Assembly: GCA_037783545.1 (NCBI GenBank) | Contig: JBBELK010000164.1 | Span: 1,736,001 to 1,800,000 of the forward strand | Length of the DNA: 64,000 nt | Origin: Henricia sp. BOLD:AAB3569 | Lineage: Eukaryota > Echinodermata > Asteroidea > Spinulosida > Echinasteridae | Direction: 5' to 3' | In this document: positions 9,001 to 46,394 of the stretch, one piece after another | Layout of the letters: each line of letters starts with the position of its first letter | How positions within the stretch are numbered: position 1 is the stretch's first letter | Program-made: the position numbers and the translations under genes | The notes under the pieces: model-generated | What the model saw: only the letters and a program-made list of their open reading frames with translations | What the model was told of the DNA's origin: nothing | Database searches by the model: none

Positions 9001-11702
9001 AAACATACCGTATTAGCCCAGATCATTCCATTATCCATACATTTGCATTTTATCATTGTCGTTCCTCAATATACTGCCTTTGGCAAGGTTATAAGGTTGG
9101 CTTTATCAGGGGGCAGCGTAAGAAAACATTCTTGATATCGGGTACGGGGGGCAGATTGTACAATTTTAGACTTATTTCAAGTCTAAATCGCGCATACTTC
9201 ACAAATTTATGAGAAGTAAGAAAATACATTTTGGTGATACGCAATATCAGACTTGACATAAGTCTAAAATGGCACAACCCGTCCCCCGTACCAGATATCA
9301 AGAATTTTGTTTTACGCTGCCCCTGGCTTTATGCATTTTTAAAAACTCTTGAATGGTTAAAAATGTTAATGGTTTCTCATGGCTGAAAAAAAGGCTTTAA
9401 AAATTTGGTGATTCGGTAGTGTTTCTTACATATTTTGGTGGTTCTAAATGAATGCTTATTTCCCTAATGATGCATAAAAGGTGTGCCCCTTTAAAAACAT
9501 AAAAAGACCAAAGATGAAGTCATGTTTGTAAAATTGTAACAAAAATACTTAATTATAATTTGAAAGATTTTTTTCAGAAATATATCAGGGGCACACAGGG
9601 CTTGTTTGTGTTTTATTTCAACGCAACTGTGATGTAAACTTTGCACTTTTTAAATTGGCAAATTTCACAAATTCTGTCTGAATTTCACAAATTTGATGCA
9701 AAATTGTTAACTGGAAACAAATGTAATTCAAAATGTTGCAAAATATAAAAATTGGCGTTTACATTTTGCGTTCAAATCAAAACACAAACAAACTTCGGCA
9801 TCATGTCCTGAAGAATATTCAATGATTTGTAATCCGATATTTCTTTGATCTTTCCCTAGTCATGGGCATGTGTCGATCTACCTACAACCTAATGTTCTTC
9901 CCAGCAGTCATCGAAAGAATGGGCAAATATCGCAAGTTGGAGAGTTGCGCAATCAGCTCCGTACTGTGCGGTGTAGGCTACGTGCCCGGTGGAATTATTG
10001 GAGGTGAGATTAGAAGGGGAACTGTCGGAGTTTTAACAATGCATTGACTCCGTTAACATTGGGGAAACTAAAGTACACTCAGCGTTCGAATTAGCACTGG
10101 TCCGTTGGCCAAATGACAGTTGAAATCATCTTGGGCCAGCTGGAAAGCCTCCCCAAATGGTCCGGCTGTCCAGTTGAAATAAAACTTGTACTGGGGAGAA
10201 CCTTAATGACTACCAAATGTTCCTAATTTATTCACTCAAATATGGTTATTGCAGACATTAAAGGTCGACTGTGTGTAAAAAGAATAACCGGGCCACTTGA
10301 AATGATGACAGGCCAGTGAAGACTTAGGAAAAAAGTTAAGGGCAAACGCTGACACTACTCACAATAAGTTAGGATATTGTCGGGTGTACCCAGACATTTT
10401 GAGGGTATGTATTCCCCTTGAATGATTTTGTATGATTAGACTATTGTATCTGCATGACAGACGCACCTTGTCACAGGAATGGGTGAAATTAGCCATTTGA
10501 AAGAGAAACAAAATCAAAAACAACATACCAATATCCCTAACTTATTGTGAGTAGTGTACTAAGGTAAAAATGTCACCCCTTGTCAATGTCAACTTGTCAA
10601 CTTGTCAAGGTTACTGGGTCTACACTAAAACCAGTGATCTGTTTTCCTGTACTTTAGCAATGGTCATTTCAGATTACCAGTGAATGTTTAGACCCAGCAT
10701 CTTTTCCTACATGTACCTCCATGGACCCAGTTACTCTAGCTACTGACATCACACTTTAGTAGTCTGTTGCTTCATTCGATGAAGATTCAATGATGATTCT
10801 TCTTCTTTCGTATGATCCCCTAAAGGGATCTGGTTGCTGAGATTAGCCGACTCAAGTCGTTGCCCTGTAGCCACCTAGGAGGTTCTTCAGCACAGCCATG
10901 AAGTGCAAGAGAACAGGAATAAATTCTCGGTTCAACGATGATTCGATACGGAGATTTCCTGATGTGAACGCACTCTCCTTTATTCATTGAATGAATATGG
11001 CAGGGTGCTATACCATATTCACTGCAACCAAAATTTGAATGTCTACAAATTTTTTTTTATATTTAACACCTTAAAGGAGCGTGACCAGGTTTTTCAAAAA
11101 AAAATAGATTTTGTTCTAACCTAACAACCATATGAAATACCTCTCTAAAATGCTATCCATGAGAGGAAAACGGGAAATTTGCAATCTCCAATTTGGATGT
11201 GGAAGCAAAAAGGTTGGTTTGTCACTGCATATCCTTGGAAATATACGGATTGAGGGCACAACATTTTAATGGTAATAAGAACAATATGACACATGATCTT
11301 ATGGTTTCAAAATGTCAACACTCATGGGAAAAATGGGTGGGTCCAAATTGCGATATGTACATCCTCCTTTAACTAACATAACTAAATACTAATGGTAAGT
11401 GGACACCACTGTATTCTGTGCCCAATTGATGGAATAACCCAATTGAAAATTTCACAGGTGCCTTATATGATGCAACTGGTACCTACATGTACTCCCTACT
11501 AATCTGCGCCTTCCTGTACCTCGCCACAAGCCTTTTGTTGGTATGGAGTGCCTACCGTTTCCGCCGTTCCAAACGGGCCCAGGGACAGATGATGAGCCCA
11601 ACTGGGAATGACAAAGGGGACGAGAATAACGCAGGGGACTCCGAGGCACAGAACAAGACAGAAGAAAAGTATGTGATCGATATGATTATGACCACTGTGT
11701 AA
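1..11702 (+). CDS. Monocarboxylate transporter-like MFS protein (SLC16 family), 5' end outside window
   Basis: Six exons (1-50, 826-1020, 1494-1855, 4986-5211, 9860-10003, 11458-11702), each with GT/AG borders, join in phase to give 406 residues. The start lies upstream. Family features seen: the loop 2-3 motif KIGYR at residues 7-11, a central basic cytoplasmic loop (about 115-165) between helices 6 and 7, GDRVP in the second half, and the very typical last-helix lead-in LYDATGTY in the final exon. Family members are 12-helix plasma-membrane proteins that move lactate, pyruvate or other monocarboxylates, usually with protons; the actual substrate cannot be read here. The C-terminal tail is hydrophilic and ends TTV. 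The first two helices and the start codon are missing because the window begins inside the gene. Confidence 0.85.
385..645 (-). repeat. tRNA-derived SINE (Leu/Ser-like head), minus strand, in MCT intron 1
   Basis: On the minus strand the head reads TGGCCGAGTGG (box A-like) and GGTTCGAACC (box B-like), followed by a body with TTGAGCAAGGCACT. The same family occurs at 50066-50390 and 62334-62410. Confidence 0.75.
826..1020 (+). CDS. MCT-like gene exon (helices 3-4)
   Basis: Pyrimidine-rich acceptor ending TATAG and donor G|GTACAG. 195 bases, phase 1 in and 1 out. Encodes hydrophobic segments and the segment YLMSYFHKEFVRGSGLMSIA, matching the MCT region after helix 4. Confidence 0.8.
1226..1271 (+). 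repeat. Poly-G tract
   Basis: G-only or GGGA-rich run inside MCT intron 2 (1021-1493). Strong G-quadruplex potential. Nothing else is recognised in this intron. Confidence 0.9.
1494..1855 (+). CDS. MCT-like gene exon (helices 5-7 and central loop)
   Basis: Acceptor TTTTTAACAG, donor ATATG|GTAGGT. Encodes APAMESMLDSIGLQHTL, a helix, then the charged loop with RPSPAEKRR and the helix-7 lead-in SPDMWILGVLSF. Higher GC than its introns, as expected for coding DNA. The frame stays open past the donor, so the donor defines the end. Confidence 0.85.
1856..4985 (+). other. MCT-like gene intron 3
   Basis: AT-rich, no coding exon seen. It holds the foldback element at 2397-2806; the rest is featureless to me. 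Confidence 0.6.
2397..2806. mobile_element. Foldback MITE with ATTACAATCG-type inverted ends
   Basis: The left end TTCGATTGTGATACGATTG is mirrored at the right by CAATCGTATCACAATCGAA. The interior has further ATTACAAT palindromes and four GTGTGACCCC/TCTGACCCC blocks. No coding capacity. Confidence 0.75.
4986..5211 (+). CDS. MCT-like gene exon (helices 8-9)
   Basis: Acceptor TGCAG, donor ATAG|GTAAAA. Encodes VGEFVGTVLSTLLGDRVP and a following hydrophobic helix. Phase 0 in, 1 out. Confidence 0.85.
5965..6590 (-). repeat. tRNA-like sequence plus tandem array of its 5' half
   Basis: On the minus strand 6036-5969 has both a box A-like TAGCTCATCTGG and a box B GGTTCGAATCCC. Five further units (6200-6580, about 78 bp) keep the box A-like TAGCTCAGCTGG but have a GGGGGAAACCTGAGG-type spacer in place of the T-arm. 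Confidence 0.8.
8296..8440 (+). repeat. 19-bp tandem repeat (GGGATCTGATCCTGAGCTT)
   Basis: About eight copies with C/T and A/C variants. The unit is not a multiple of 3, so all three minus frames stay open and give a 19-residue repeat; I regard these frames as non-coding. Confidence 0.9.
9109..9325. mobile_element. Foldback MITE
   Basis: The ends GGGGCAGCGTAAGAAAAC and TTTACGCTGCCCC are inverted, and the match continues inward through TTCTTGATATC and TACGGGGG. About 217 bp, inside an intron, non-coding. Confidence 0.8.
9860..10003 (+). CDS. MCT-like gene exon (helices 10-11)
   Basis: Acceptor TTTCCCTAG, donor GGAG|GTGAGA. Encodes FFPAVIERMGKYRKLESCAI and GYVPGGIIGG, the family's helix 10-11 region. 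Phase 1 in and out. Confidence 0.85.
10353..10556. mobile_element. Foldback MITE in MCT intron 5
   Basis: CTACTCACAATAAGTTAG at the left is mirrored by CTAACTTATTGTGAGTAG at the right. About 204 bp. Confidence 0.8.
11072..11373. mobile_element. TTAAAGGAGYGTGACCAG-family foldback element
   Basis: Begins TTAAAGGAGCGTGACCAG and ends CCTCCTTTAA. Related copies lie at 53473-53840, 54743-55080 (right end not clear) and 59443-59803 (left end decayed). TTAA ends suggest piggyBac-type mobilisation (inference). Confidence 0.6.
11458..11702 (+). CDS. MCT-like gene terminal exon
   Basis: Acceptor TTTCACAG. Encodes ALYDATGTYMYS, the last helix, an RFRRSK basic stop-transfer, then a Gln/Asn/Asp/Glu-rich tail ending TTV before TAA. 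A GTATGT about 30 bases before the stop could be an alternative donor, so a longer tail is possible. Confidence 0.8.
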
Positions 11703-11889
11703 TTAAGTATCTGATTGTATGGTATCCACACTTGGGTCATTATTCTGATTTGGGACAAGGTTTAACAGTTAGTCTTGGCCAAGTTTGAGGAATTGAAATT
11801 TTCTTAAAATATTGATTCTTGATCAGAACAGAAGTTTGTTAAAGACGGTTAACTTGTACATAATAAGGCACTGATCGACCAATCACTTT

Positions 11890-12240
11890 GGAATCGCTTT
11901 CAAGACTGTTCTGCTTCAGTGATTTCGCCCAGGTCTAAGTGGACCTACTTGAACAAAGTGATTCACACAGAAATGAAATGTGACATTCCCTGTTTCTGGG
12001 AGAATCCTGCAGTTAGGGGCCCCAGAAAATCATTTAGTTGGGTTTTCAACCTGATTGAACCTGCATGGGATGAGCTGACCGCTGAAACCATGCTCTCCCA
12101 AACTAGCCCTAGAAGTGCAGGAGCTCAGGGAGGCACTTCAGGCAGAGTGGCACACCCTACCTCAGTGGCTCTTACAGAGGCTGGTGCAGTCAGCCTTGCC
12201 ACAAGAGGTGGCCAATACAATTTTACATTGTTTAGCTTAT
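11890..12240 (+). pseudogene. Tc1/mariner-type transposase relic (C-terminal part)
   Basis: A stop-broken frame reads LREALQAEWHTLPQWLLQRL after a decayed segment, matching the C-terminal region after the DDE catalytic centre of Tc1-like transposases. It is homologous to 40230-40600 on the opposite strand. No catalytic core remains. Confidence 0.65.
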
Positions 12241-12877
12241 AATTCCATCAGAGTATAAATTGTGTTACTTTTTATAAACCACGTATCGATCAAGCCCAAT
12301 ATGCAGATGCAGCCAAATTGTTGTATTATCAGTAATGAAAACAGAGAATTGGAAAAGATGATATTTCTTGTTATAAGCAAAATGTTTAACAGTGCGCATA
12401 CTAACAAGGTTCAGCTGTAGACATCAGATGTTATTTTGCCTGTTACTAGTATCCTAGTAACCATAATACTACATTGTAATATTCCAAGTGGATTTAAAAG
12501 CTGACCCTTGATATACAGTGTAATAGTGCTTCACAACCACACTTGCTTGACAAAATTCTAATCAGGGTATCTAAACCAAAGCTGTTTGTTCAGCCTTGAC
12601 CAAATCTATGACATTTTTTCATGCATTTTATTTCTACATGTACACGTGTATGTACTGAAAGGACTTTTTAAAGTCTGCTACATGTATATTGATTTATTGT
12701 ACCTTTCCAGAATATGCATGAGTATTTTTGTACTGGTGGGTATTTTTGTATAGACTCTTCACTGCCATCAATATAGGTTTTTACAATGTTTTGTAAAGGA
12801 ACCATGCAGTGTTTGAATAATGTACATAAAATTAGCCAATGTTGTTTGCTAATTAGCAATTAAAAATCTGAAGCTTA

Positions 12878-12883
12878 ATAAAG
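12878..12883 (+). terminator. Candidate polyadenylation signal AATAAA
   Basis: First clear AATAAA downstream of the MCT-like stop codon on the + strand. No GU-rich element was checked. Confidence 0.4.
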
Positions 12884-13074
12884 CATCGGCAAAAGTAGGC
12901 TTATAATTATCATAATGACAGTCTTATGTAACTGTCACAATGGTGGAGTTTTATATAGCGCATGCATACATCGAGCGCTCGGTGCTCAGTGCACTGTTAT
13001 TATGTAACGCCCCAAGTACATGTAGATCCTTGTCATTTGATTGGAGGATTGTGGGTCACATGGTGTTCAGCAAT

Positions 13075-13329
13075 TAAAGGCCCATTACACCATTTGCAAT
13101 GACCCAAAATTTTACTTAATTACTCAAAGTGTTGATACAGCAATGGTAACAAACACCACAAGATTGTATTTTTTTTTTTGATGGATTTTGAAGGTTTTCT
13201 GAAGCATTGATGTATCTCTTTAGTTGAAATTTCTGCAGGGCTTAGTATACCAACATTCTTCTTTGGATATGTTATTTAAGAAATCTGTATACAAAAGTTA
13301 AATTTTGCAAATGATACATTGGCCTTTAA
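13075..13329. mobile_element. Foldback MITE, AAAGGCC...CATTTGCAA ends
   Basis: Left end AAAGGCCCATTACACCATTT, right end AAATGATACATTGGCCTTT. A second copy lies at 48282-48614. Confidence 0.75.
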
Positions 13330-13487
13330 ATGCTATGCTACCAAATTACTGTGTATTTTTGTTTTTCCATGCTATAATATTGTACCAAGGATCTTGGGAT
13401 GCTCATCATAATGCCTGCATTGTAATTTGTATAAATAATAAACAGTTACATTAAGCTTTGAAGTAACATTAATATACTGCACAACGA

Positions 13488-13830
13488 GAAGACGTGGTGA
13501 TCTACATGTAGTGGATAAGCACGTCAGACTTTCGGGTGATAGGTCCGTGGTTCGAATCCTGGTCACTGCTATCACGTTGTGTCCTTAGACATTGTCTCTC
13601 TCCACCCATGTGTATAAATGGGTACTGGCAAATATTGGTTGGGAAACCCAGCTACATAGCTGCTGGGGGTAGACCTGTGATGGACTGGCATCCCATCCAG
13701 GGGGAATAGCAATGCTCCTAGTCACTCCATGCCATGGAAACTGGGGATGAGTACCGGCCATATGAGCCATCTTGGCTCGTGAAGCAACTTTACTGCACAG
13801 CTCGTGTTTTTTCACCACTTAAAGCGGCTT
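13488..13830 (+). repeat. tRNA-derived SINE
   Basis: The head carries TAGTGGATAAGCACGTC and a perfect box B, GGTTCGAATCC. The body includes GGACTGGCATCCCATCCAGG, a module I have seen in other animal SINE bodies. Confidence 0.75.
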
Positions 13831-15407
13831 TTGCTACATTATGTTCTTGTAACTCGCAACTGCCATGTGTGTGTGTGTGTTAACATTCCTTTTTGTCCAT
13901 TCACGTATGGCAGATGTAAATGATAGAAATTCAATAAATAATGACAAAACACTGTCAATGTATTTATTGCTACATATATTTTACTTGTTTTAGAAATAGC
14001 CCATTGTTTGCCCTATTCTTGGTTTTAAAAAATGTTATGGGTGTTTTATGTGCTACTTGTAATACGGCAAGACAATTTTATGGGTAGTCTACTTGTTTGG
14101 TAATTATCCTCTAAAATGTTTTTCTTAATTATTATCTTTGAGCTTATTGTTATCGAGATGGTAATGGTAGTAATCATGCTGTGAAATTATTTCGTCTGAA
14201 TTTCCCCCATTCATGAGAAAAATGACAAAACTATTTGAATCTGGAGCCATTCATTCGTGCACAAAAACCATGATTGGGTTTTTTCATGTTTTCTGAAGTA
14301 TTACTACATCTACGTGGCTGAAATTTCTAGGTAGTTTTCTCGACCTAGCTTTCAATTAACAGTGGAAATCATGCCGTTTTTAACAGTTTACCAAACGAGT
14401 ATACTACCTTTAAGCAACTCAACTGGCTTTTAAATTCAGTTGAAGATATATTGAAAAACAAAAATATTTATATTGAATGTGTATTTATTGCTAATACTTC
14501 TGCTTTTTTTGTCAAAGCATGCTTATTATAAAAAATTAGTTATACTGATTAGAAAGAAATCAGAATTTGTGAATGGAAAATACACCTAAAATGTCACTAT
14601 TTCATTCCCTCAGATAATTTGGTCTTTGTTCGTTCATAAGACCTGGGGTGCATGTCTTTTATTTATTGAAAGATGAAGACGTTTTGTGAATAAGATATAT
14701 TTCGTCAGCTGTAATTGTGAAATTCAAAACTATTTGTATGATGTTTTCTACAGTGAAAGAAGTTATAGAATAATGTTGACATTTTAAGTATGCAAAATAA
14801 CTTTCTTGACTGTTTTTTGTTTTTTAGAATTTACAAAAATGTATTCCAGAGACTATACATGTAAGTTATAGCTGTAGATCAAGTAATTTTTAAACATTGC
14901 CATAATTAGCATTGCCATACCCATTATGCTTTGTGGGAAAAAAATATTAAAGACAGTGCCTGTACAGATAAGATGCCGTCTCATATAATTCTTGTTTTAA
15001 TAATAATAATAATAGCAATCTTATATAGCGCCAAATGCCAGGGCCTCTAGGCGCTTTACAGTATAAACCAAAGTGATAACATACATATATATATATATAT
15101 ATACATGTATATAGATAAAAAATATTAAACGTTAAAACCAAAGAGCATCATCAAAAGCATCAAGTCTGGTAATACTGAACCAAAAGATGTGTCTTAAGCT
15201 GGGACTTGAAATTACTGATGTAATGAATTTGACGCATGCTGTTAGGAAGACCATTCCAGAGGTGTGCCGCTGAAAAAACAAAATATTCTTTATGGTTCGT
15301 TAATTGGTTGCATGTCAATTCTTATTGAATTATTTATTCAAGAAGTGTTTCAGGAACGCGTGTGATGCAGTATTACAAACCGGATGTGATATCCGTACCT
15401 GGGTTAA

Positions 15408-15730
15408 TAATGTAATGGTGGACACTAGTATAGCGCACATGTCTACCCTAGGGTACTCCTGGCGCTGTTGCTATACTTTATCGCTGCCATCAGGAAATCA
15501 CCAGAACCATTTCGCTTCAACTAGGTGGCTACCTGGCCAAGGCGCACAATCCTATCTGCAGTTAGATTGTGGCATTCCCCCTAACAGCTCCTCAAATAAC
15601 GCTTGGGTTGACGAGGCAATTGAGATTAAGTGTCTTGCCCACAGAAACGAACACGTTGGCACAAGTGGGGCTCGAACCCTTAACCCTTCGATCACAAGCA
15701 CGGCTGTATACCCACTAGACCACACATGCT
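15408..15730 (-). repeat. tRNA-derived SINE, second family
   Basis: The minus strand starts GTGTGGTCTAGTGGGTATAC, has GGGTTCGAGCCCC as box B, and ends in an AGCGCTATA-type tail. A second copy lies at 60625-60955. Confidence 0.8.
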
Positions 15731-16484
15731 CTGCGAACACTGCTTATGATTGGTCTAACTCAATGCAATGTTGCATACTTATACGTTTTGTCGATAACCT
15801 ATCTCCACGCTCTTTCCTTAATTATTATTGAAAAAAAGAAATGTGACTCAAAGCGGATTCGAACCCGCAACTCTTGATTGATAGTCCTATGTCTTCACCA
15901 ATAGACTACCAAGCAACTCGACAAATCCATAAATTTTCTTTTTTTATCGCTTTATTTAACAACTCCTGAGGGCGCTATATAGAGAATATCAATATTCATA
16001 TCCATTGCAACTAATCAGAAACATTGATGGAGCCCTATAGCAAATATGTGTAGGGAAAAAATATCACAAATGGAAACCGGATATAGGGATTGGGCACCAG
16101 TCTAGTTACTAGAAGCCGGCCTAGACTGGTTCCCGTCCACATATTCCACACAGGAGAAGCGAACCAATCTATAGGGATCGGGAACCAATCTAAAGCCGGC
16201 CATGATAAGCGGGAAAGTGAAAAATAGCTGGTAAGTTGAATGTTTTTTATCTTCTTTCGTCGTGAAAATGAAACATTTATTTGCTCAATGTTTTATATAT
16301 CTGCAAAAACGAGCAGTGAATGAGTTTAAAAACTATAATTTTGTGATTGAATAGTGTGCATAAACTGATTATTCTATGGAATGTTTAGAGCTTTATAAAA
16401 CTTTAAAAGTTACCCAAAATGGCGGCGGGAATTTAAACTGGGGCGCGTAGCACGTGGTTCGGTCGTGCTGCACAACAGACTAGA

Positions 16485-16855
16485 CCGCGCGTTGCTTAGC
16501 ACAAAAATTTGCTTAGCACAGAATTTGTTTGCTTTATTTTGCAAAAATGGATTGCCAGCCAAAATCGTAAGTGATGTGTATTGAAAGGTATTCTCCTACT
16601 CCTGCGAAGAACACAAGTTGGCGTATAATTAAATTTGGACTGTAATCCATTTTATAAAGCAAATCAATCCTGTGCTAAGCAAATTTTTGTGCTTAGCAGC
16701 GCCATGAAATTGGCCCCTGGGCCCAATTTCATAGAGCTGTTTAACAGCCCATTTTCCGTTAACCGTGCGTCAGGCTATTTCATAGACATCGTTAACGGTA
16801 AGCAACTGAAAACCTGCCTTAACCAAGCACTAGCAGCCCCATGAAATTGGCCCCT
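16485..16855. mobile_element. Two adjacent foldback elements (CTTAGCAC and GGCCAATTTCAT families)
   Basis: TTGCTTAGCACAAAAATTTG is mirrored by CAAATTTTTGTGCTTAGCA. Next to it GGGCCCAATTTCATAGAGC is mirrored by CCCCATGAAATTGGCCCC. Related sequence is built into each 727-bp unit at 17.56-22.08 kb and lies at 42255-42420. Confidence 0.7.
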
Positions 16856-17245
16856 GACATGCCTGATGACAGAGGGTGCCATATGCGTATTGCGTGTGTT
16901 TGTGTTCTTTAATATAAAATCAAATGTAGGTTTCTCGTGATTTTAAATGAATTAAATCAAAAGAATACCACAACTGGCCTTGCAAGTGTTGTTTTTGACG
17001 TGCCACTGGAAAACGCTTGAAGCTCAGCGCTTGATGCGCGACGTGCAGGTATGGCCTCCCACAGCTTCATTCGATCTTCGTTAGCGGTCGCTTAATGTAA
17101 ACGGTACCGCTCTTCGTTCGATCTTCATTAAGTGATATGTGAACGCACGCTTCATAAACTAACGATGATAAACTAATCTTCGTCGAACGAAGCGATTTTT
17201 CTAGTTAGAACGGGGTCTTACTTGTCCTTTTTATTCTCATACTAG

Positions 17246-17361
17246 CACTGAATACCACTGCGGAGGAACAGCCCAGGTGAACAACTGGAATGATAAATCG
17301 AACCCTGAAGATGTTAAGGGCATCAATTGAGAGGTGTACAAAGCTTGTTCCGAGTTTAAAG
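17246..17361 (+). pseudogene. D-amino-acid/D-aspartate oxidase exon, frameshifted
   Basis: Acceptor TTCTCATACTAG and donor AAAG|GTAAGG. The first half reads GGTAQVNNWN with downstream PED, matching the LGGT-Q-x-DWN...P block of DAO/DDO. A stop then follows in that frame, while another frame reads IERCTKLVPSLK, matching the family's RCC-LEPSL block. One indel near 17318 is therefore needed. Normal enzymes are FAD-dependent peroxisomal flavoproteins that deaminate D-amino acids. The next family block (VxEWVGLRP) was not found before the first terminal-exon copy, and no upstream exons were found in 12-17.2 kb. I read it as a gene relic, unless the frameshift is a sequencing error. Confidence 0.7.
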
Positions 17362-17379
17362 GTAAGGCTTAAGGAGTAT

Positions 17380-17535
17380 ACCACTGTGCCTCATAGCTCA
17401 GCTGGAAGAGCATCTGCCCAATGTGTCAAAGGTCTTGGGGGAACTGAGGGAGTATACCACTGCGTCTCATAGCTCAGCTGGTAGAGTAGGTACTCTACCA
17501 GCTGAGCTATGAGACGCAGTGGTATACTACCGCAG
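17380..17535. repeat. tRNA-like units with a perfect 38-bp-arm palindrome
   Basis: Two forward TAGCTCAGCTGG units are followed by an inverted one. Bases 17451-17488 and 17491-17528 are exact reverse complements separated by GG. It sits between the DAO-type exon and the 727-bp array. Confidence 0.9.
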
Positions 17536-18067
17536 TGCCCTGTGTGTCGGAGGTCTTTCAAATATTCGAATAATGATTTTTGTATTCGAATATTCAAAAA
17601 GGTTAATCAGTAATAAGTTGATCAGTAAATTGGGAGATAAAAGAAATGTTTTTTTACAGGAGTGGTATTTTCTAAAAAGCCCGGCGCAAACGGGAGAAAA
17701 AAAAAGAAACACGAAACCAATTGTGCTTAATGAAAATACCGAACTCGCCCTCGGCTCGTTCTGTATTTTCATGACTCGTACGGTATATTCTCATATCACC
17801 CTCAAAGCCGTCCAATATTATATAAATACTGGTACAGATTGCCAAATTTATAAAGACGTTTAGCAGGAAACATTTGCTTACTACAAAGTTTATTTGCTTT
17901 GCAAAAATGGATTAGCAGGCAAAATCATACGTAAATTTGTGTACTACACATCACAAACGATTTTGACTGCTAACCCATTTTTTACAAAGCAATTAAATTT
18001 TGTATTAAGCACATTTTTCTGCTGAACAGCTTATAAAATTTACCCCTTGTCATTTTCGTTCACCTAG

Positions 18068-18172
18068 GTTGTTCATAATTACGGACATGGTGGCTCTGGT
18101 GTTACGCTACATTGGGGCTGCGCATTGGACGCCACGGAGTGCATTGCAGAGCTACCAATGGCCAAACTGTAG
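18068..18172 (+). CDS. D-amino-acid/D-aspartate oxidase terminal exon, copy 1
   Basis: Acceptor TTCGTTCACCTAG, then [20 protein letters not shown]...ELPMAKL and TAG. HNYGHGG-G-T-HWG is the C-terminal FAD-site signature of DAO/DDO, and the length after it fits the family. AKL at the end is a plausible type 1 peroxisomal targeting signal. Whether it is spliced to any functional upstream exon cannot be told. Confidence 0.75.
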
Positions 18173-18793
18173 CTGGACAATCACTCATCGGCTGAGATTG
18201 TGAGAAAGACTACGAGACATAAGGTACACATTTCAGTAGGGCTGTTCCAGTTATTCGAATATTTGAATATATTTGATCGATAACCAAATATTCGAATAAT
18301 GATTTTTGTATTCGAATATTCAAAAAGGTTAATCAGTAATAAGTTGATCAGTAAATTGGGAGATAAAAGAAATGTTTTTTTACAGGAGTGGTATTTTCTA
18401 AAAAGCCCGGCGCAAACGGGAGAAAAAAAATGAAACACAAAACCAATTGTGCTTAATGAAAATACCGAACTCGCCCTCGGCTCGTTCTGTATTTTCATGA
18501 CTCGAACGGTATATTCTCATATCACCCTCAAAGCCGTCCAATATTATATAAATACTGGTACAGATTGCCAATTTCATGAAGCCGTTTAGCAGGAAACATT
18601 TGCTTAATACAAAGTTTATTTGCTTTGCAAAAATTGATTAGCAGGCAAAATCATACGTAAATTTGTGTACTACACATCACAAACGATTTTGACTGCTAAC
18701 CCATTTTTTACAAAGCAATTAAATTTTGTATTAAGCACATTTTTCTGCTGAACAGCTTATAAAATTTACCCCTTGTCATTTTCGTTCACCTAG

Positions 18794-18898
18794 GTTGTTC
18801 ATAATTACGGACATGGTGGCTCTGGTGTTACGCTACATTGGGGCTGCGCATTGGATGCCACGGAGTGCATTGCAGAGCTACCAATGGGCAAACTGTAG
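18794..18898 (+). CDS. Oxidase terminal exon, copy 2
   Basis: Same frame, acceptor and stop as copy 1, with C-terminus GKL instead of AKL. Confidence 0.7.
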
Positions 18899-19520
18899 CT
18901 GGACAATCATTCATCGGCTGAGATTGTGAGAAAGACTACGAGACATCATAAGGTACACATTTCAGTAGGGCTGTTCCAGTTATTCGAATATTTGAATATT
19001 TGATCGATAACCAAATATTTGAATAATGATTTTTGTATTCGAATATTCAAAAAGGTTAATCAGTAATAAGTTGATCAGTAAATTGGGAGATAAAAGAAAT
19101 GTTTTTTTACAGGAGTGGTATTTTCAAAAAAGCCCGGCGCAAACGGGAGAAAAAAAAAGAAACACGAAACCAATTGTGCTTAATGAAAATACCGAACTCG
19201 CCCTCGGCTCGTTCTGTATTTTCATGACTCGTACGGTATATTCTTATATCACTCTCAAAGCCGTCCAATATTATATAAATACTGGTACAGATTGCCAATT
19301 TCATAAAGCCGTTTAGCAGGAAACATTTGCTTAATACAAAGTTTATTTGCTTTGCAAAAATGGATTAGCAGGCAAAATCATACGTAAATTTGTGTACTGC
19401 ACATCACAAACGATTTTGACTGCTAACCCATTTTTTACAAAGCAATTAAATTTTGTATTAAGCACATTTTTCTGCTGAACAGCTTATAAAATTTACCCAT
19501 TGTCATTTTCGTTCACCTAG

Positions 19521-19625
19521 GTTGTTCATAATCACGGACATGGTGGCTCTGGTGTTACGCTACATTGGGGCTGCGCATTGGACGCCACGGAGTGCATTGC
19601 AGAGCTACCAATGGGCAAACTGTAG
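19521..19625 (+). CDS. Oxidase terminal exon, copy 3
   Basis: Same, but HNHGHGG: the motif's Tyr is His. C-terminus GKL. Confidence 0.7.
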
Positions 19626-20248
19626 CTGGACAATCATTCATCGGCTTAGATTGTGAGAAAGACTACGAGACATCATAAGGTACACATTTCAGTAGGGCTG
19701 TTCCAGTTATTCAAATATTTGAATATTTGATCGATAACCAAATATTCCAATAATGATTTTTGTATTCGAATATTCAAAAAGGTTAATCAGTAATAAGTTG
19801 ATCAGTAAATTGGGAGATAAAAGAAATGTTTTTTTTACAGGAGTGGTATTTTCTAAAAAGCCCGGCGCAAACGGGAGAAAAAAAATGAAACACGAAACCA
19901 ATTGTGCTTAATGAAAATACCGAACTCGCCCTCGGCTCGTTCTGTATTTTCATGACTCGTACGGTATATTCTCATATCACCCTCAAAGCCGTCCAATATT
20001 ATATAAATACTGGTACAGATTGCCAATTTCATAAAGCCGTTTAGCAGGAAACATTTGCTTAATACAAAGTTTATTTGCTTTGCAAAAATGGATTAGCAGG
20101 CAAAATCATACGTAAATTTGTGTACTACACATCACAAACGATTTTGACTGCTAACCCATTTTTTACAAAGCAATTAAATTTTGTATTAAGCAAATTTTTC
20201 TGCTGAACAGCTTATAAAATTTACCCCTTGTAATTTTCGTTCACCTAG

Positions 20249-20353
20249 GTTGTTCATAATTACGGACATGGTGGCTCTGGTGTTACGCTACATTGGGGCT
20301 GCGCATTGGACGCCACGGAGTGCATTGCAGAGCTACCAATGGGCAAACTGTAG
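20249..20353 (+). CDS. Oxidase terminal exon, copy 4
   Basis: Intact HNYGHGG frame, C-terminus GKL. The upstream acceptor tract has C to A in TTGTCATTTTC. Confidence 0.7.
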
Positions 20354-20969
20354 CTGGACAATCATTCATCGGCTTAGATTGTGAGAAAGACTACGAGACA
20401 TCATAAGGTACACATTTCAGTAGGGCTGTTCCAGTTATTCAAATATTTGAATATTTGATCGATAACCAAATATTCCAATAATGATTTTTGTATTCAAATA
20501 TTCAAAAAGGTTAATCAGTAATAAGTTGATCAGTAAATTGGGAGATAAAAGAAATGTTTTTTTTACAGGAGTGGTATTTTCTAAAAAGCCCGGCGCAAAC
20601 GGGAGAAAAAACACGAAACCAATTGTGCTTAATGAAAATACCGAACTCGCCCTCGGCTCGTTCTGTATTTTCATGACTCGTACGGTATATTCTCATATCA
20701 CCCTCAAAGCCGTCCAATATTATATAAATACTGGTACAGATTGCCAATTTCATAAAGCCGTTTAGCAGGAAACATTTGCTTAATACAAAGTTTATTTGCT
20801 TTGCAAAAATGGATTAGCAGGCAAAATCATACGTAAATTTGTGTACTACACATCACAAACGATTTTGACTGCTAACCCATTTTTTACAAAGCAATTAAAT
20901 TTTGTATTAAGCAAATTTTTCTGCTGAACAGCTTATAAAATTTACCCCTTGTCATTTTCGTTCACCTAG

Positions 20970-21074
20970 GTTGTTCATAATTACGGACATGGTGGCTCTG
21001 GTGTTACGCTACATTGGGGCTGCGCATTGGATGCCACGGAGTGCATTGCAGAGCTACCAATGGGCAAACTGTAG
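20970..21074 (+). CDS. Oxidase terminal exon, copy 5
   Basis: Intact frame and acceptor, C-terminus GKL. The GAT/GAC difference at the Asp codon is silent. Confidence 0.7.
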
Positions 21075-21696
21075 CTGGACAATCATTCATCGGCTTAGAT
21101 TGTGAGAAAGACTACGAGACATCATAAGGTACACATTTCAGTAGGGCTGTTCCAGTTATTCGAATATTTGAATATTTGATCGATAACCAAATATTCGAAT
21201 AATGATTTTTGTATTCGAATATTCAAAAAGGTTAATCAGTAATAAGTTGATCAGTAAATTGGGAGATAAAAGAAATGTTTTTTTACAGGAGTGGTATTTT
21301 CTAAAAAGCCCGACGCAAACGGGAGAAAACAAATGAAACACGAAACCAATTGTGCTTAATGAAAATACCGAACTCGCCCTCGGCTCGTTCTGTATTTTCA
21401 TGACTCGTACGGTATATTCTCATATCACCCTCAAAGCCGTCCAATATTATATAAATACTGGTACAGATTGCCAATTTCATAAAGCCGTTTAGCAGGAAAC
21501 ATTTGCTTAATACAAAGTTTATTTGCTTTGCAAAAATGGATTAGCAGGCAAAATCATACGTAAATTTGTGTACTACACATCACAAACGATTTTGACTGCT
21601 AACCCATTTTTTACAAAGCAATTAAATTTTGTATTAAGCAAATTTTTCTGCTGAACAGCTTATAAAATTTACCCCTTGTCATTTTCGTTCACCTAG

Positions 21697-21801
21697 GTTG
21701 TTCATAATTACGGACATGGTGGCTCTGGTGTTACGCTACATTGGGGCTGTGCATTGGACGCCACGGAGTGCATTGCAGAGCTACCAATGGGCAAACTGTA
21801 G
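21697..21801 (+). CDS. Oxidase terminal exon, copy 6
   Basis: Intact frame and acceptor, C-terminus GKL. TGC to TGT in the WGC motif is silent. Confidence 0.7.
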
Positions 21802-22804
21802 CTGGACAATCATTCATCGGCTGAGATTGTGAGAAAGACTACGAGACATCATAAGGTACACATTTCAGTAGGGCTGTTCCAGTTATTCGAATATTTGAAT
21901 ATTTGATCGATAACCAAATATTCGAATAATGATTTTTGTATTCGAATATTCAAAAAGGTTAATCAGTAATAAGTTGATCAGTAAATTGGGAGATAAAAGA
22001 AATGTTTTTTTACATGAGTGGTATTTTCTAAAAAGCCCGGCGCAAACGGGAGAAAAAAAACAAAACGCGAAACCAATTCGTTTACTCCCCTTTTCGCGTT
22101 TCAGTGAATCCACCCCGCAAATAGAAATGCCACCGAAACGGATACAGCGCCGCCAGGGGCGACAACAGAGCAGTACAGTTACATTATATATTGATAACAC
22201 GTGATCTAGAATACGAGCGATGATTGGTCATCGGTTTCTCCCGTAGCGAAACAAGTTCCGCAGACTGTAGGCCGAAACGTTTGATTTAATGAAAACATGT
22301 TTCGCGAAACAAGCAGGTTTGTTTCGCGAAACAAACAACGTTTTCTGTTTGGGGTAATGCCGACAAATGTCAACGTCACGAGGAAAAACGTTTTTGTTTC
22401 GCATTGTGTATTTTTTGCCTACCGTTTGTGGTGCTCCAAATGTATGCAGTATTTATTTTGTATTTCTAGATTGATCATACTGCATTAAAATTTACTCAAT
22501 GGTATATGATAAATCAGGCTCAACGATTATTCGATAATCAATCTATCACTTGATGAAAATATTCGAATATTAAGTTATTCGAATTGACTCGGCCCTACAT
22601 TTCAGTGGGATAGATAATAAGGTTTGAAAAAGGAATAACTGGGTCTTTCCACGCTAATGGGCCTATTTGAAAAATAAGTCAATAATTCCTTTCAGATGTC
22701 TTTAGTTTATCCCAAACTTGAAGAAATTCCCTTGTACTGTTCTCGGGAGATAACTTTTGCCCAAAAAGGTAAGAAAATGCTGCCACAACATACATTTCTG
22801 TAAA

Positions 22805-22915
22805 GCTTGTGTACAAATCTTCCATTTACGTATGTAACGGCGGACAGACAAAAATGTCACAATTTTGTCTGTCCACCGTTACATATGCATGACAAATTTG
22901 TACACTGCAAAAGAG
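22805..22915. repeat. Hairpin with GACAGACAAAA arms
   Basis: Arms GTAACGGCGGACAGACAAAA and TTTTGTCTGTCCACCGTTAC face each other across a short loop. Confidence 0.85.
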
Positions 22916-22997
22916 GTGCGTCTGACTCTCAGAGTGGTCTGTGTGGCATTTAACTACACTGTTCACACATGAGCAGTATGTACAAATTTTGCTTAGT

Positions 22998-23385
22998 CGA
23001 ATTCAGCAATTTCTTCATCGAATGAGGAAATTCTGATCTTCGTTGAATAGACATGGTGGCCCGTGACGTGACTTGTTTTATCTAGCACGCCCTCTGTTGA
23101 CTGCCAAGCATGGTTTAACAGGGCGTTTCTATGAGTATACTCGTAGTCGGTAGTCAACGTGTTAATGACAATTTTAGAAATATTTGCTTTGAAACCAAAG
23201 CTACGTAGAAAAAACTTGGACTTGCCTATGTAAACTAGTGGGTTTTTTGCCTGTCGTCTTTTGTCTCAAATCAACAGAGGGCGCCCCAAATGTAAACACG
23301 TCACATCGTCTATAAAGAGGCATGCGTTCAGATCAGAAAATCCAATCAAATTATCGTTGAAGCTTACTGAATGAAGATTTTTTAA
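22998..23385. mobile_element. Foldback element with CATCGAATGAGG / TTCAGATCAG arms
   Basis: Imperfect inverted ends, plus an inner mirrored CACGCCCTCTGTTGA / TCAACAGAGGGCG pair. Related ends occur near 10770-10990 and 17050-17215. Confidence 0.6.
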
Positions 23386-24868
23386 AATGTGACTACCGGT
23401 ATGGCTATATTTCACATTTGATGACTGAGGTACAAGATTCTAAGCAGTATGACAACATTTTGCTTGCTTGGGAAGGGTAAAAAATATGACCCGGAACAAT
23501 CTCCTTTAAGTCTAAAGATAGAATGAGGTTAAATTTATATTCCATAAGACACTTCACTTATGCATTATGGCTATGGTATTTTGGGTTTTTTCCAGTATTA
23601 TAAATTATTTTGCTAAACTTGTATTCACGATTATGATTAATGCTTCAGCTGAGTGCTTCAATTATTTCCGTGTAGTAAAATAACAGAGAACCACCTACAA
23701 TGTATCTTCCTTCATTGTATTTTTTCGCATTTCTTTTGATCTTATTAGACATTTATTTCACATTACCTCAATTCTTGAAAATAAATTTTACAATTCTTTA
23801 AAATATATAATACAGTAAAATAAACTGACCAGTATGCAATGGGTGTCTATATAGTTTAGTTTTTGTTTAAAGGTAGTATAATCGTTTGGTAAACTGTTAA
23901 AAACGGCACAATTTTCACTGGTAATTGAAAACATAGGTTGAGGAAACCACCTTGTAGAAATGTCAGCCACATAGATGCAGTAATACTTCAGAAAACCTGA
24001 AAAATCCAAATGCGGTTTGAATGAATGAATGGCTCCATTCATTTGGAGATTCAAATATTTTTCTCATGAATGGGGGCAATTCAGACGAAATTATTTCAGA
24101 GGGTGATTACCAAACAAGTAGATTACCTTTAACATCCGACATACTAATAAATGCATTAAAAAAGGCAACTCTCTCAACTTTTATGCTAATTACGGGAAGG
24201 GCGAAAAACCTACAAAAAACCTTTTTAAGGAAAACAAAATTGGAAAATTCCCTTCCGGCTCCATGTTTTGATGGCAACCAAGTTAAACAACTCCGTAATT
24301 TAGCATTATTGCGTCCTTATCCACAAAAGTGACTTGACGTTTTTAATTTTTATTTTATTACTATTATTTTTTGTGTCAGCAATACAAGTTTAGTGCCTTG
24401 TTCTGTCTGTTAATTGACTTCACAAAATTGGCTACTAACTTGTGCGGCTCAGTAACGACACCTGTGATGTCAAGATCACAAATGATCGCAAGGAAAGTGT
24501 GGCTAAGTAGAAATTAGTCTTTAGTGGTTATTGAGAGGAAAACTTCCTAGGCTGTCCGCACTGGATTAAAAATGGGAAAAGTACCCATTGTCTCGGTGGG
24601 TTTTCCCAAAAAAAGTCCAATGCGGTCAGGCCTTAAGACTCATCTACCGTATAGTGTTCGTATATCACCTCACAAGGAGGGCTTAAATGTATCTAAGATC
24701 AGTCTGTGTTGGTCGTGCTGCTCTCTTTTTTGTCCCATAATAAGTCTTTTCACAAGATGTAATCAAGAAAAGGCAACGAGCAGGATCTGACTTGAAAGAT
24801 CAAGGGAATATAATAATGTTCATATTGCTTCCTTGATGCGAGGAGTGTCCTTATTTGATAGAGCATTG

Positions 24869-24981
24869 TCAGAAGTCTTCACATTTCTTGGATGTATCAC
24901 AAAGGGGAAGGCCCAAGCATTTCTGTATTGGTATCCTCGTTGTCTGAAAGATGGCAGTTATCGACGTCAGAGTATGATTAT
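24869..24981 (-). CDS. Cassette exon copy, possible terminal coding exon
   Basis: Acceptor TTTTCTTCTAG. Open for 37 codons in the incoming phase, then TGA. It lacks the CAAG|GTTAGG donor of the others, consistent with being terminal. Confidence 0.4.
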
Positions 24982-26455
24982 CTAGAAGAAAACAAACAAA
25001 TAATATGTTAACTCTTTAAAATTTTGGTAATGACAAAAAAAAGGGCTACTGAAATACATGTATATGAAATAAAATACATAAAATAAAATGCAATTTTCCT
25101 TTCCCTAGAAATAAGGAGGTGTTAAGATTCGGCCAATCACTTGAGCCCCTATTTCAAAAGAAGGGTGATGGTGTTGAATTAATCGAGACCTAACCTTGCA
25201 TCAGGGCGTCTCCATCCAGGCACAGACGTTTCTGTATTGGCTGAGGGGTGCTCATCATTGACAACAGCGTTTCGTCAGTCCAAAAAGATCATCTGGAAGA
25301 AGAAAAAAAAGGTGAGCCATACTAATGAGGAGACGTTTAGATTCGGCCAATTGTTAGAATCTATTTTTTAATATAAGGACGATTGTGCTAGCCTAATGCC
25401 AGTGAATTAATCAAGACCTAACCTTGCATCAGAGCGTCTCCAACCAGGCCTGAGCATTTCTGTATTGGTATCCTTGCTGCATGACTGAAGGATGCTCGTC
25501 TCAGACGAAAGAGGGATGTCATAGTCCAATCAAATCATCTATAGAGAAAAGAAAAAAATGAGATTGTTTTTTTTTTTTACACCAACCATGTTTAGAGGTG
25601 CTTAGAGTCGGCCAATCATTTTTAATATAAGGGTGATGATGCTAGCGTAATACCAATTAATTAACCGAGACCTAACCTTGCATCAGAGCGTCTCCGCCCA
25701 GGCACGGGCATTCCTGTATTGGTATCCTCGCTGACTGAAGGATGCTCGTCTTGGAAGACAGTGACGTCAGAGTCCAATCAAATCATCTGGTAGAAAAGAA
25801 ACAAATGATTTTTTTTTTTATTACACCATAGTGATGGGGATTACACCAGAAAAATGCTTCTGGTGATGACCATGACATTGTGACAATTAAAGGGATAGAA
25901 CGGATGCATGAAATAAAATGCAAAACTTCGTTTCCCAGAAATCAGAAAGCATTTTGCATCGGTCAAACACAAGAGTCCCTTTTTGAATACATGTGTAAAG
26001 ATGATAAACCAAGACCTAACCATAGAGTTATATATAGAAAACTAGAGTGCGCACTCCCAATACATGATGTGCTGATATGGATGCCGCCATTTTGGCTTAA
26101 CGCTATGGGTGCTCGGTGGGCGAAGCTGTGTTGCCCACTTTGCACGCATAGCGATAAGCAAACATGGTGCCGCCCGCATCGGTACGGTCCACACACGTGG
26201 CTTGAATAGCCAGTGCACACTCTAGTTTACTATATATAACTCTATGGACCTAACCTTGCATCAGAGTATCCATCCAGCATTCAATTTGGCTTCCTTCTTG
26301 GGTTGCTGGGTGACGTCCAATCAGATTCCCTCCTTGCATCGCCAGTTGCAAGCCAACAGCATCTTGGTCTGAGATGGATCCCCTCATCATTGGGCACCAT
26401 TCATCCCGTTGCTTTCCTGGATGCACTTTCACGTCAGGAGCTGAAGGTCTTTGTG
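24869..26455 (-). CDS. Unrecognised minus-strand transcript with tandem cassette exons
   Basis: Five blocks on the minus strand have acceptor tracts and, except the last, a GATGCAAG|GTTAGG donor: 26255-26455, 25677-25786, 25423-25538, 25195-25292 and 24869-24981. The first is open in one frame (includes HPGKQRDEWCPMMRGS and ends LMQ). Splicing to the second or third gives DDLIGL then a stop; to the fourth, a short different tail; to the last, 37 codons ending KKCEDF. No family is recognised. It may be protein-coding with alternative ends or a non-coding RNA. Upstream exons were not found beyond the C-rich tract at 26479-26520. Confidence 0.4.
25195..25292 (-). other. Cassette exon copy
   Basis: Acceptor TTCTTCTTCCAG, same donor. 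Reads DDLFGLTKRCCQ-stop. Confidence 0.45.
25423..25538 (-). other. Cassette exon copy
   Basis: Acceptor TTTTCTCTATAG, same donor. DDLIGL-stop is again preserved although the rest differs. Confidence 0.45.
25677..25786 (-). other. Cassette exon copy
   Basis: Acceptor TTCTTTTCTACCAG, donor CAAG|GTTAGG. In the phase set by the upstream exon it reads DDLIGL-stop. Confidence 0.45.
26022..26247. mobile_element. Foldback MITE inserted next to the cassette exon
   Basis: CATAGAGTTATATATAG and CTATATATAACTCTATG mark the ends, flanked by CCTAAC / ACCTAAC, a possible target duplication. The inner arms AGTGCGCACT / AGTGCACACT also mirror. It lies in an intron of the cassette transcript. Confidence 0.85.
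26255..26455 (-). CDS. Cassette transcript, first visible exon
   Basis: Acceptor CCTTTTACATTAG, donor CAAG|GTTAGG. Its 3' part is homologous to the downstream cassettes. Confidence 0.4.
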
Positions 26456-26478
26456 CTAATGTAAAAGGAGAAAACAAA

Positions 26479-26520
26479 CCCCCCCCCCCCCCCTCCCCCC
26501 CCCACTCCCCCTCCCCAACC
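26479..26520. repeat. Poly-C tract
   Basis: C-only runs with a few T and A. G-rich on the minus strand. Confidence 0.9.
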
Positions 26521-26581
26521 CCAAAAAACAACAACAAGCAAAAAAAATAAAAAATTAACCCTGTTAAACCCTAACCCTGTT

Positions 26582-27668
26582 AAACATGCTTACCAATGTT
26601 ACCAATATAACCAATATATTCTTACTTTCTTGCTTAGTGTACAAGACTGTAACTGGTAACTGGCCTCAGTCAGTTGGGACGAAGCCTGTTACCATGTTAA
26701 ACATTCTTACCAATGTTACCAATATATTCTTACTTTATTGCTTAGTGTACAAGAATGGAACTGGTAACTGGCCTCGGCCAGTTGGGACGAAGCCTGTTAC
26801 CATGTTAAACATTCTTACCAATGTTACCGATATATTCTTACCTTCTTGCTTAGTGTACAAGAATGGAACTGGTTACTGGCCGAAGCCTGTTACCATGTTA
26901 AACATTCTTACCAATGTTACCAATATATTCTTACTTTCTTGCTTAGTGTACAAGAATGGAACTGGTAACTGGCCTCGGCCAGTTGGGACGAAGCCTGTTA
27001 CCATGTTAAACATTCTTACCAATGTTACCGATATATTCTTACCTTCTTGCTTAGTGTACAAGAATGGAACTGGTTACTGGCCGAAGCCTGTTACCATATT
27101 AAACATTCTTACCAATGTTACCAATATATTCTTAGCTTCTTGCTTAGTGTACAAGAGTGAAACTGGTAACTGGCCTCAGCCAGTTGGGACAAAGCCTGTT
27201 ACCATGTTAAACATGCTTACCAATGTTACCAATATATTCTTAGCTTCTTGCTTAGTGTACAAGAGTGGAATAACTGGCCTCAGCCAGTTGGGACGAAGCC
27301 TGTTACCATGTTAAACATGCTTACCAATGTTACCAATATATTCTTAGCTTCTTGCTTAGTGTACAAGAGTGGAATAACTGGCCTCAGCCAGTTGGGACAA
27401 AGCCTGTTACCATGTTAAACATGCTTACCAATGTTACCAATATAACCAATATATTCTTAGCTTCTTGCTTAGTGTACAAGAGTGGAACTGGTAACTGGCC
27501 TCAGCCAGTTGGGACGAAGCATGTTACCATGTTAAACATTCTTACTAATGTTACCATGTTAAACATTCTTATTAATGTTACCGATATATTCCTACCTTCT
27601 TGCTTAGTGTACAAGAATGGAACTGGTTACTGGCCGAAGCCTGTTACCATGTTAAACATGTTAAACGC
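26582..27668 (+). repeat. Minisatellite, about 92-115-bp unit
   Basis: About ten units with ACCATGTTAAACATTCTTAC, GCTTAGTGTACAAGA and ACTGGCCTCAGCCAGTTGG (itself a hairpin). Units of about 108 and 93 bp alternate in the first half. The 242-codon open frame over it shows no domain beyond the repeat. Confidence 0.95.
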
Positions 27669-28420
27669 AGACGACGGTAGGCGAAGTTCCTAGTGCCGTA
27701 AGTTCTTTGCCGGACTTACAGACTTTTTACGTGCGAGTGCCGAGTTACGACGGAATATGTGGTATAAAAGTTACAAACATGGCCCCAGTTTTAAAAACAA
27801 CAGATTCTAGAAACACAAATGGCAGCCCACACAAAAGGGGTGAGAGGGGGCGGAGGCGGGTGCCGCGGGTGTTAAAAGATTATCAGGTGGGCACCGTGAC
27901 AAAATATTACCAATTAGACATTCTATTTTAAAACATTACATAGGGCCTACAAGCACAAAAACTTTACACATGCACGTCACTACGTACAACTTTTCAAGTT
28001 CACCCTTGACACAAGAGGGCGCTGTTTAACATAGCAAACTCCCCACTTCAGCTATATGATTACTACTATTTGCCGATAGTTGGTTATCGGACTTACGGAC
28101 ATAGTTTAACAGAATTAACAACCTACATTATACACATCGCCCATAAAAAGTACAAACGTTTGAAAGCGTTTTCAAACGGTATCTCGTCGGCAATGGCAAA
28201 TTTGAAACATTCGACAAACGTTTTCAAACGTTTGCCGAACGTTTGTCGTTGACGCCCATAAAAAGTACAAACGTTCGAAAGCGTTTTCAAACGGGATGTC
28301 CTTCATATACGGCGTAAATTCATGTACGTTACTTCGTTTCCATTATATATGAGACAACTGGGGTTTGATATTCACAGCAAAACACAATGTTCATGGAAAA
28401 ACACATCTGATGTTTACATG
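27669..28420. other. Gene-free segment with a local duplication
   Basis: The segment CCCATAAAAAGTACAAACG plus GAAAGCGTTTTCAAACGG occurs twice (28140 and 28254). Nothing else recognised. Confidence 0.5.
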
Positions 28421-28424
28421 AGAT

Positions 28425-28670
28425 GTTCATAGCGCAACCGAATTGATGTTGATAGCGCAACCGAATTGATGTTGATAGCGCAACCGAATTGATGTTGATA
28501 GCGCAACCGAATTGATGTTGATAGCGCAACCGAATTGATGTTGATAGCGCAACCGAATTGATGTTGATAGCGCAACCGAAATGATGTTGACAGCGCAACC
28601 GAAATGATGTTGATAGCGCAACCGAATTGATGTTGATAGCGCAACCGAATTGATGTTGATAGCGAAACAC
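28425..28670. repeat. 23-bp satellite
   Basis: About ten copies of GATGTTGATAGCGCAACCG plus AATT. Open in two minus frames only because the short unit lacks stops. Confidence 0.95.
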
Positions 28671-28975
28671 ATTAAGATGTTGATAGCGAAACACATTAAG
28701 ATGTTGATAGCGAAACACATTAAGATGTTGATAGCGAAACACATTAAGATGTTGATAGCGAAACACATTAAGATGTTTATAGCGAAACACATTAAGATGT
28801 TTATAGCGAAACACATTAAGATGTTTATAGCGAAACACATTAAGATGTTTATAGCGAAACACATTAAGATGTTTATAGCGAAACACATTAAGATGTTTAT
28901 AGCGAAACACATTAAGATGTTTATAGCGAAACACATTAAGATGTTTATAGCGAAACACATTAAGATGTTCATAGC
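28671..28975. repeat. 24-bp satellite
   Basis: About thirteen copies of AAGATGTTTATAGCGAAACA plus CATT. The first four or five copies have GTTGATAGCG like the adjoining 23-bp array, the later ones GTTTATAGCG. The unit is a multiple of 3 and gives an eight-residue repeat (MLIAKHIK / MFIAKHIK). Confidence 0.95.
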
Positions 28976-29069
28976 GAATTCATTACATGTAGATGTTCAT
29001 ACATTAGCAAAACACATTTTGATAATAGAAAAACACATTTTGACATTCATAGCAAAACACATTTCATGT

Positions 29070-33100: not shown

Positions 33101-33130
33101 TCCTCTAAATTAGGTTTAAGTGGGTTATTA
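30111..33130. other. AT-rich region with dispersed hairpin motifs
   Basis: No exon recognised. GGCATTGCGGAC-type motifs followed by CAATGCTGCATTGC or GTGCACAAGGCACTGC recur near 30610, 30730, 30845, 30955, 31105, 32565 and 32730. A 117-bp direct repeat at about 32280-32345 and 32395-32465 (GGAGCTGAGRAGCCTTGCGA) is also present. Confidence 0.6.
31340..31950. repeat. Segmental duplicate, copy A
   Basis: Shares an ordered series of blocks with 33190-33870: AACTTGAACCC, a CCCCAACCCC tract, GCACTGCGC/GCAGTGCGC, a TCTGCGAAAA block and ACGCTGCTGAACGC. Confidence 0.7.
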
Positions 33131-33189
33131 TTATTAGATCTTGTGATGTTGCGGAAATAGCGAGTATCTAGTTCCATCTGCAGTAGTAA

Positions 33190-33870: not shown

Positions 33871-34082
33871 TGTATAATATACCATAATTATAGGTTTGTA
33901 ATTTAATATCGTTAGCTTTCGTAAATATTACATTTCTGTTATCATTTTATCATTTTCTAGCATTTAATATTTAACAAGCATTATTTTCGAAATTAATTTT
34001 ATTGAAGAAAACAAATCCCGAAAGCACGTGGTGTGATTGTGCCAGCATTTTTAGTGAAACTTAAATAACCGAAAAATGGGGC

Positions 34083-46330: not shown

Positions 46331-46394
46331 ATGATTTGAATCAACTGATCCTTCCATCAGTTCCTAAGCACACAACTCTTCAGTGTCTAAAAAA

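Follow-up and report, generated by a model that had tools for sequence, protein, structure and literature searches.

The 64,000-nucleotide window considered here (positions 1,736,001 to 1,800,000, forward strand, of contig JBBELK010000164.1 from the echinoderm Henricia sp. BOLD:AAB3569, assembly GCA_037783545.1) contains spliced genes and many repeats. At 17559-22078 on the plus strand lies a tandem array of six full head-to-tail units, 721-728 bp each and spanning 17559-21914, followed by a 164-bp partial seventh unit (~6.2 copies in all). Every full unit carries what is predicted to be the terminal exon of a gene of the D-amino-acid oxidase (DAO)/D-aspartate oxidase (DDO) family. A preliminary description had proposed the tandem amplification of such an exon, and this proves to be correct; the six copies with a common acceptor, a 34-codon frame and a stop are all present as it described them. 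The partial seventh unit reaches 22078, three bases farther than it gave. It overlooked a relic of an earlier DAO exon which lies 197 bp upstream of the array, on the same strand and in the correct order. The array is probably a short and recent tandem amplification from the last exon of a dead DAO gene fragment. The features of the locus are as follows.

17246-17361, plus strand: relic DAO exon, with acceptor TTCTCATACTAG, donor GTAAGG at 17362 and a one-base frameshift near 17325
17368-17558, no strand assigned: tRNA-like repeat sequence, which fills the gap from the relic exon to the array, in the place expected for the penultimate exon; part of it is a near-perfect palindrome
17559-18284, plus strand: unit 1, exon at 18068-18172 (34 codons and stop), C-terminus AKL
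18285-19011, plus strand: unit 2, exon at 18794-18898, C-terminus GKL
19012-19738, plus strand: unit 3, exon at 19521-19625, with Tyr to His in HNYGHGG
19739-20466, plus strand: unit 4, exon at 20249-20353
20467-21187, plus strand: unit 5, exon at 20970-21074, with a 7-nt deletion in an A-rich run upstream of the exon
20746-20942, no strand assigned: palindromic element of 197 bp resembling a miniature inverted-repeat transposable element (MITE), in the intron part of unit 5, 27 nt from the exon
21188-21914, plus strand: unit 6, exon at 21697-21801
21915-22078, plus strand: partial unit 7, without the exon

An ungapped repeat tool sets the starts of units 4 and 5 at 19740 and 20461; they are placed here at the matching base (19739 and 20467), the shift being due to the 7-nt deletion in unit 5.

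All six full units have the acceptor TTCACCTAG and, directly after it, a 34-codon frame closed by a stop; the translations show no frameshift or nonsense change in any copy, in agreement with the preliminary description. The 34-residue peptide is identical in four of the six copies, and copies 1 and 3 deviate. In copy 3 a His replaces the Tyr of HNYGHGG, a change that had been recorded before; a second non-silent change, which lies outside the motif then quoted, had been overlooked. It is a Gly to Ala change in copy 1 (MAKL instead of MGKL), whose last three residues are AKL, whereas copies 2-6 end in GKL. With two silent differences, this makes four variable sites in 105 nt of exon.

A search of the exon peptide against the PDB confirms the DAO/DDO match. 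All 16 distinct sequences found at E<=10 carry the name D-amino-acid oxidase or D-aspartate oxidase, the best at E 3.5e-9, and the repeated exon is therefore assigned, by protein similarity, as the C-terminal exon of a DAO/DDO-family gene. The peptide aligns to chain residues 305-330 of DAO, and it scores better against DAO than against DDO (6rkf, E 1.5e-6). The Pfam family PF01266 gives 16.5 bits on the 34 residues, below the gathering cut-off of 27.9, as would be expected of such a short peptide; adding the relic exon raises the score to 23.4 bits, still below the cut-off. Searches of non-animal collections gave four weak phage matches of the exon peptide (E 3), no confirmed relative in the bacterial and archaeal genomes scanned, and no match of the exon pattern or of the tRNA-like repeat in viral contigs; these searches say little because the collections are not of animals.

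The relic exon can be aligned with DAO from about residue 238 to 271. Its first frame reads TEYHCGGTAQVNNWNDKSNPEDVKGI, and the frame one base on reads IERCTKLVPSLK, ending exactly at the GTAAGG donor. When the two pieces are joined by an X and compared with the PDB, all 16 matches at E<=10 are again DAO/DDO proteins (best E 2e-4, chain residues 238-271). Profile matches in the two frames are collinear, at columns 241-268 (iE, independent E-value, 0.015 in 6.4 kb) and 265-278 (iE 3.1), and tblastn with a DAO probe gives a weak match at 17208-17312 (E 0.74), in the first frame only. Because this stretch had been picked after looking, a frameshift-tolerant scan was run over the whole window with the array masked. 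The relic exon scores 66 and its alignment ends at 17361, which corresponds to DAO residue 271. Forty random sequences, generated by a first-order chain with the same base steps and scanned on one strand each, give a maximum of 45.5 (mean 38.9, standard deviation 3.2). Judged from its order and strand, a relic exon 197 bp from the array would hardly be expected as a coincidence.

The relic exon takes the protein to residue 271 and the last exon resumes at 305, so that an exon for about residues 272-304 is required between them; it would hold a segment, present in the probe sequences, which we take to be the RPxRP motif. This penultimate exon was not found in the gap before the array or elsewhere in the window. 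With the relic exon masked, the best score in the gap (17362-17558) is 25. On neither strand of the array-masked window does any other DAO segment exceed the null maximum, the next-best scores being 41.0 (plus strand) and 37.5 (minus strand); the plus-strand best is 41.0 also when the relic exon is masked. The N-terminal part, which binds flavin adenine dinucleotide, the middle and the RPxRP segment were not found in frame in the window, nor were copies of the terminal exon outside the array. No functional DAO/DDO gene is therefore seen here: there is no other segment above the null, and the relic exon is frameshifted. As far as the probes reach, the DAO pieces appear to stand alone in the window. 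Pfam searches of the three plus-strand frames of 1-17702 and 22001-36702 gave no DAO match, which is weak evidence of absence because they missed the relic exon too; plus-strand positions 36703-64000 and the minus strand were searched for DAO with the human probes only, except that Pfam was also run on four minus-strand frames and one plus-strand stretch.

Several other candidate matches were set aside. A DAO-like match at 2661-2708 (tblastn E 0.32) has a frame context unlike that of an exon, and its score of 41.0 is within the null. The match of 11986-12024 to DDO residues 197-209 (E 1.6; frameshift-tolerant score 37, within the null) is read as a repeat, since a similar peptide, RILQL...LIKPAWD, recurs in a minus-strand frame at 40235-40471. 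A score of 56 at 17516 is the slowly decaying tail of the relic-exon alignment and falls to <=25 once the relic exon is masked, and a minus-strand profile match at 12756-12902 (score 3.4, iE 0.036) is not above the frameshift-tolerant null.

The six full units differ by substitutions at 0.56-2.07% of aligned sites (all 15 pairs), and private indels are found in units 1 and 5. There are 26 gap-free variable sites, 21 of them singletons and five shared. The four-gamete test fails for six of the ten pairs that the shared sites form, i.e. these pairs are incompatible with one tree. This would be the expected outcome of exchange between copies, with recurrent mutation as the alternative reading, and together with the head-to-tail order it gives the array a satellite-like character.

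Are the intact frames a sign of use? The preliminary description took them as a hint of function, a suggestion that is not supported. The exon is no more variable or less variable than its surroundings (4/105 sites, compared with 22/605 gap-free flank columns; Fisher P = 1.0). Random changes in the exon create or destroy a stop in 5.5% of cases, and the probability that four such changes leave the stops untouched is 0.80; the chance that no indel falls in the exon is ~0.5, estimated by hand from ~4 indel events in the flanks. The comparison of synonymous and non-synonymous differences, also proposed at the time, gives two silent changes in four, which is no excess and no sign of constraint (binomial P 0.29). 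No constraint on the exons is visible, and weak constraint would be undetectable because only four sites in the exon vary. The exons probably appear intact because the amplification is young, and not because they are selected.

These observations bear on the proposal, made in the preliminary description, that the copies provide alternative last exons. They could form a working cassette if a DAO gene had its remaining exons beyond the window, with AKL and GKL termini giving differing strengths of peroxisome targeting. The acceptors are identical, the frames are open, and tandem terminal exons that serve as alternatives do exist, as outlined for Drosophila pip (PMC9013439). In passages of another source, zebrafish Dao1 is listed with a C-terminal SRL as peroxisomal signal, AKL is a canonical signal, and the broad pattern for the type 1 peroxisomal targeting signal (PTS1) permits G at position -3; those passages do not discuss GKL (PMC8919083). 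However, the nearest upstream DAO exon is frameshifted, and the intermediate exon that would be needed was not found. In addition, a transporter gene on the same strand, with its own stop, lies upstream, and there is no visible constraint, with the reservation about four variable sites given above. There is no AATAAA anywhere in the array; ATTAAA is found once per unit, upstream of that unit's exon. Use of the copies as alternative last exons is unlikely, and a working cassette of this kind is given little credence. A more elaborate version supposes a genuine DAO gene whose other exons lie beyond the window or are joined in trans: the AKL of copy 1 and the GKL of the others would tune import into peroxisomes, and competing RNA hairpins of the palindromic element, just ahead of each acceptor, would steer the choice. 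It is the least probable of all the explanations considered.

The repeats within and beside the array offer clues to its origin. The MITE-like element of unit 5 is 81% self-complementary over 203 columns and has two overlapping predicted folds (z = -4.2 and -5.6). The remaining full units align with it, and blastn finds relatives in the window near 16496-16718 and 42261-42364. It is a short palindromic element with further copies, and on these sequence features the intron palindrome of the unit looks like a MITE. Another part of the repeat unit recurs at 58233-58307 (blastn).

Such dispersed relatives would also suit a different history, in which a DAO terminal exon was picked up at another site by a satellite or mobile repeat family, the array is one of several dispersed copies, and the relic exon is coincidental or was carried along. 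A simple tandem duplication is expected to leave a whole number of units, and the array has six units and 164 bp; either at least one edge was trimmed afterwards, or the array arrived by insertion of a piece, as for part of a concatemer. Against capture stand the relic exon, which is correctly ordered and oriented and 197 bp away, and the fact that the window yielded no further copy of the terminal exon. Capture elsewhere is thus rather unlikely, though it is the strongest of the competing accounts. The preliminary description, which offered a young satellite that had captured an exon, came close; the relic neighbour suggests instead that the last exon was already there and was amplified in place, beside the remains of its own gene.

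A near-perfect palindrome at 17439-17540, with 50-nt arms at 17439-17488 and 17491-17540 and 2 nt between them, is found near the left edge of the array, and the DNA fold of 17430-17548 has z = -14.4. It may mark a hot spot of rearrangement, or it may be a fold-back produced by the assembly. Structures of this type can mislead assemblers, and this raises the question of whether one or two real units have been inflated by mis-assembly. The differences between copies (21 singleton and five shared sites, and the private indels of units 1 and 5), with the failed four-gamete pairs, argue against a single unit written out repeatedly from accurate reads, and an artefact seems highly improbable, marginally more so than a working cassette.

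Two further observations concern the surroundings of the array. The tRNA-like sequence belongs to a set of tandem repeats with units of 78-79 bp and the core TAGCTCAGCTGGTAGAGC, found at 6213-6590, 39544-39916 and 56493-57527 as well as at 17368-17540, with up to 13.3 copies; ARAGORN finds no tRNA in them and Rfam no family at gathering level. Inverted repeat arms at 14170-14417 and 23863-24110, 82% alike over 255 columns and ~9.4 kb apart, bracket the relic exon and the array.

The amplification of a last exon beside its dead gene can be pictured as follows. A piece of a DAO gene would have sat here and decayed. It may have acquired repeats, with the MITE-like palindrome entering the last intron and the tRNA-like repeats settling past the earlier exon, and both the penultimate exon and the reading frame would have been lost. 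A segment consisting of the end of the last intron, the last exon and the 3' flank would then have been duplicated, perhaps with the help of the palindromes, and unequal exchange could have expanded it to 6.2 copies and mixed the copies. If the left edge of the array was the one trimmed, this would explain as well why the penultimate exon is absent and why the junction with the tRNA-like sequence is abrupt.

Some points weigh against this picture. The relic exon is strong only in the frameshift-tolerant view: profile scores for its single frames are low (4.6 and -2.9, the first barely above the 3.4 of a chance match on the minus strand), and alone it has no Pfam match. Its frameshift could be a sequencing error. 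The bases adjoining the exon at the acceptor are identical in all six units, the terminal tripeptides of all copies are allowed by the broad peroxisomal pattern, and variant poly(A) hexamers, e.g. AGTAAA, are present ~280 bp past each exon start. Two human proteins served as the DAO probes, with which very divergent exons could be missed, and the search extends over the 64-kb window, that is 17 kb upstream and 42 kb downstream of the DAO pieces.

The nearest gene upstream, between the window start and the DAO pieces, is a transporter.

1-11702, plus strand: 3' part of an SLC16/MCT-like monocarboxylate-transporter gene, exons joined by hand

Its exons are at 1-50 (cut by the window edge), 826-1020, 1494-1855, 4986-5211, 9860-10003 and 11458-11702, and they form a continuous frame of 406 amino acids with a stop at 11702, on the same strand as the DAO pieces. 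The frame matches Pfam MFS_1 (E 1e-22), and its PDB matches are MCT10, MCT2 and MCT1, MCT10 being the best (E 9.8e-14). Elsewhere in the window, a single stretch at 39209-39412, which lies close to tRNA-like repeats, is similar to an ANF-type receptor ligand-binding region (PF01094, E 8.9e-5, below the curated cut-off) and has no PDB match at E<=1. An 83-bp tandem repeat is found in opposite orientations at 48732-49141 and 51011-51171, ~1.9 kb apart. At 46390-46686 a 54-bp unit is repeated 5.5 times with 99% matches, and a 92-aa open frame runs through most of it; this is probably a very recent minisatellite.

The locus illustrates how an array of intact-looking exons can come from a dead gene, where youth and exchange would keep the frames open with no selection. 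Gene predictors would tend to annotate six DAO exons at such a site. It can also be looked at, on a small scale, as a satellite-like repeat close to its time of birth that still lies next to its likely source, each unit containing a transposon-like hairpin and a strong palindrome marking the edge of the array.

With respect to known proteins, the exon peptide shares with DAO (PDB 2du8, 1dao) and D-aspartate oxidase (6rkf) the segment HxYGHGG...HWGxAL and a short tail with a peroxisome-type tripeptide. In contrast to these proteins, only the C-terminal segment and a frameshifted piece, about residues 238-271, are found here. No published tandem array of DAO exons is apparent by title among the literature matches listed. 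Drosophila pip is described with eight tandemly repeated clusters of terminal exons, and in hydra first exons are repeated with the DINE-1 transposon on their flanks (PMC9013439). The hydra arrangement resembles the transposon-like element inside each unit here, and pip resembles the array in that copies of a terminal exon are repeated, each with its own acceptor. However, pip, as presented there, is a working gene, whereas the array has a broken upstream gene; an intact upstream donor exon in compatible phase is not found, since the donor GTAAGG is present and the exon before it is frameshifted.

Macrosatellite arrays can contain pieces of genes, e.g. D4Z4/DUX4, and the likeness lies in tandem units with coding sequence that are mixed by exchange. 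The array in Henricia differs in having only 6.2 copies, and its one exon, of 34 codons, lacks a start and lies beside the relic of the likely source gene. Its layout recalls that of pip, its behaviour that of a small satellite-like array.

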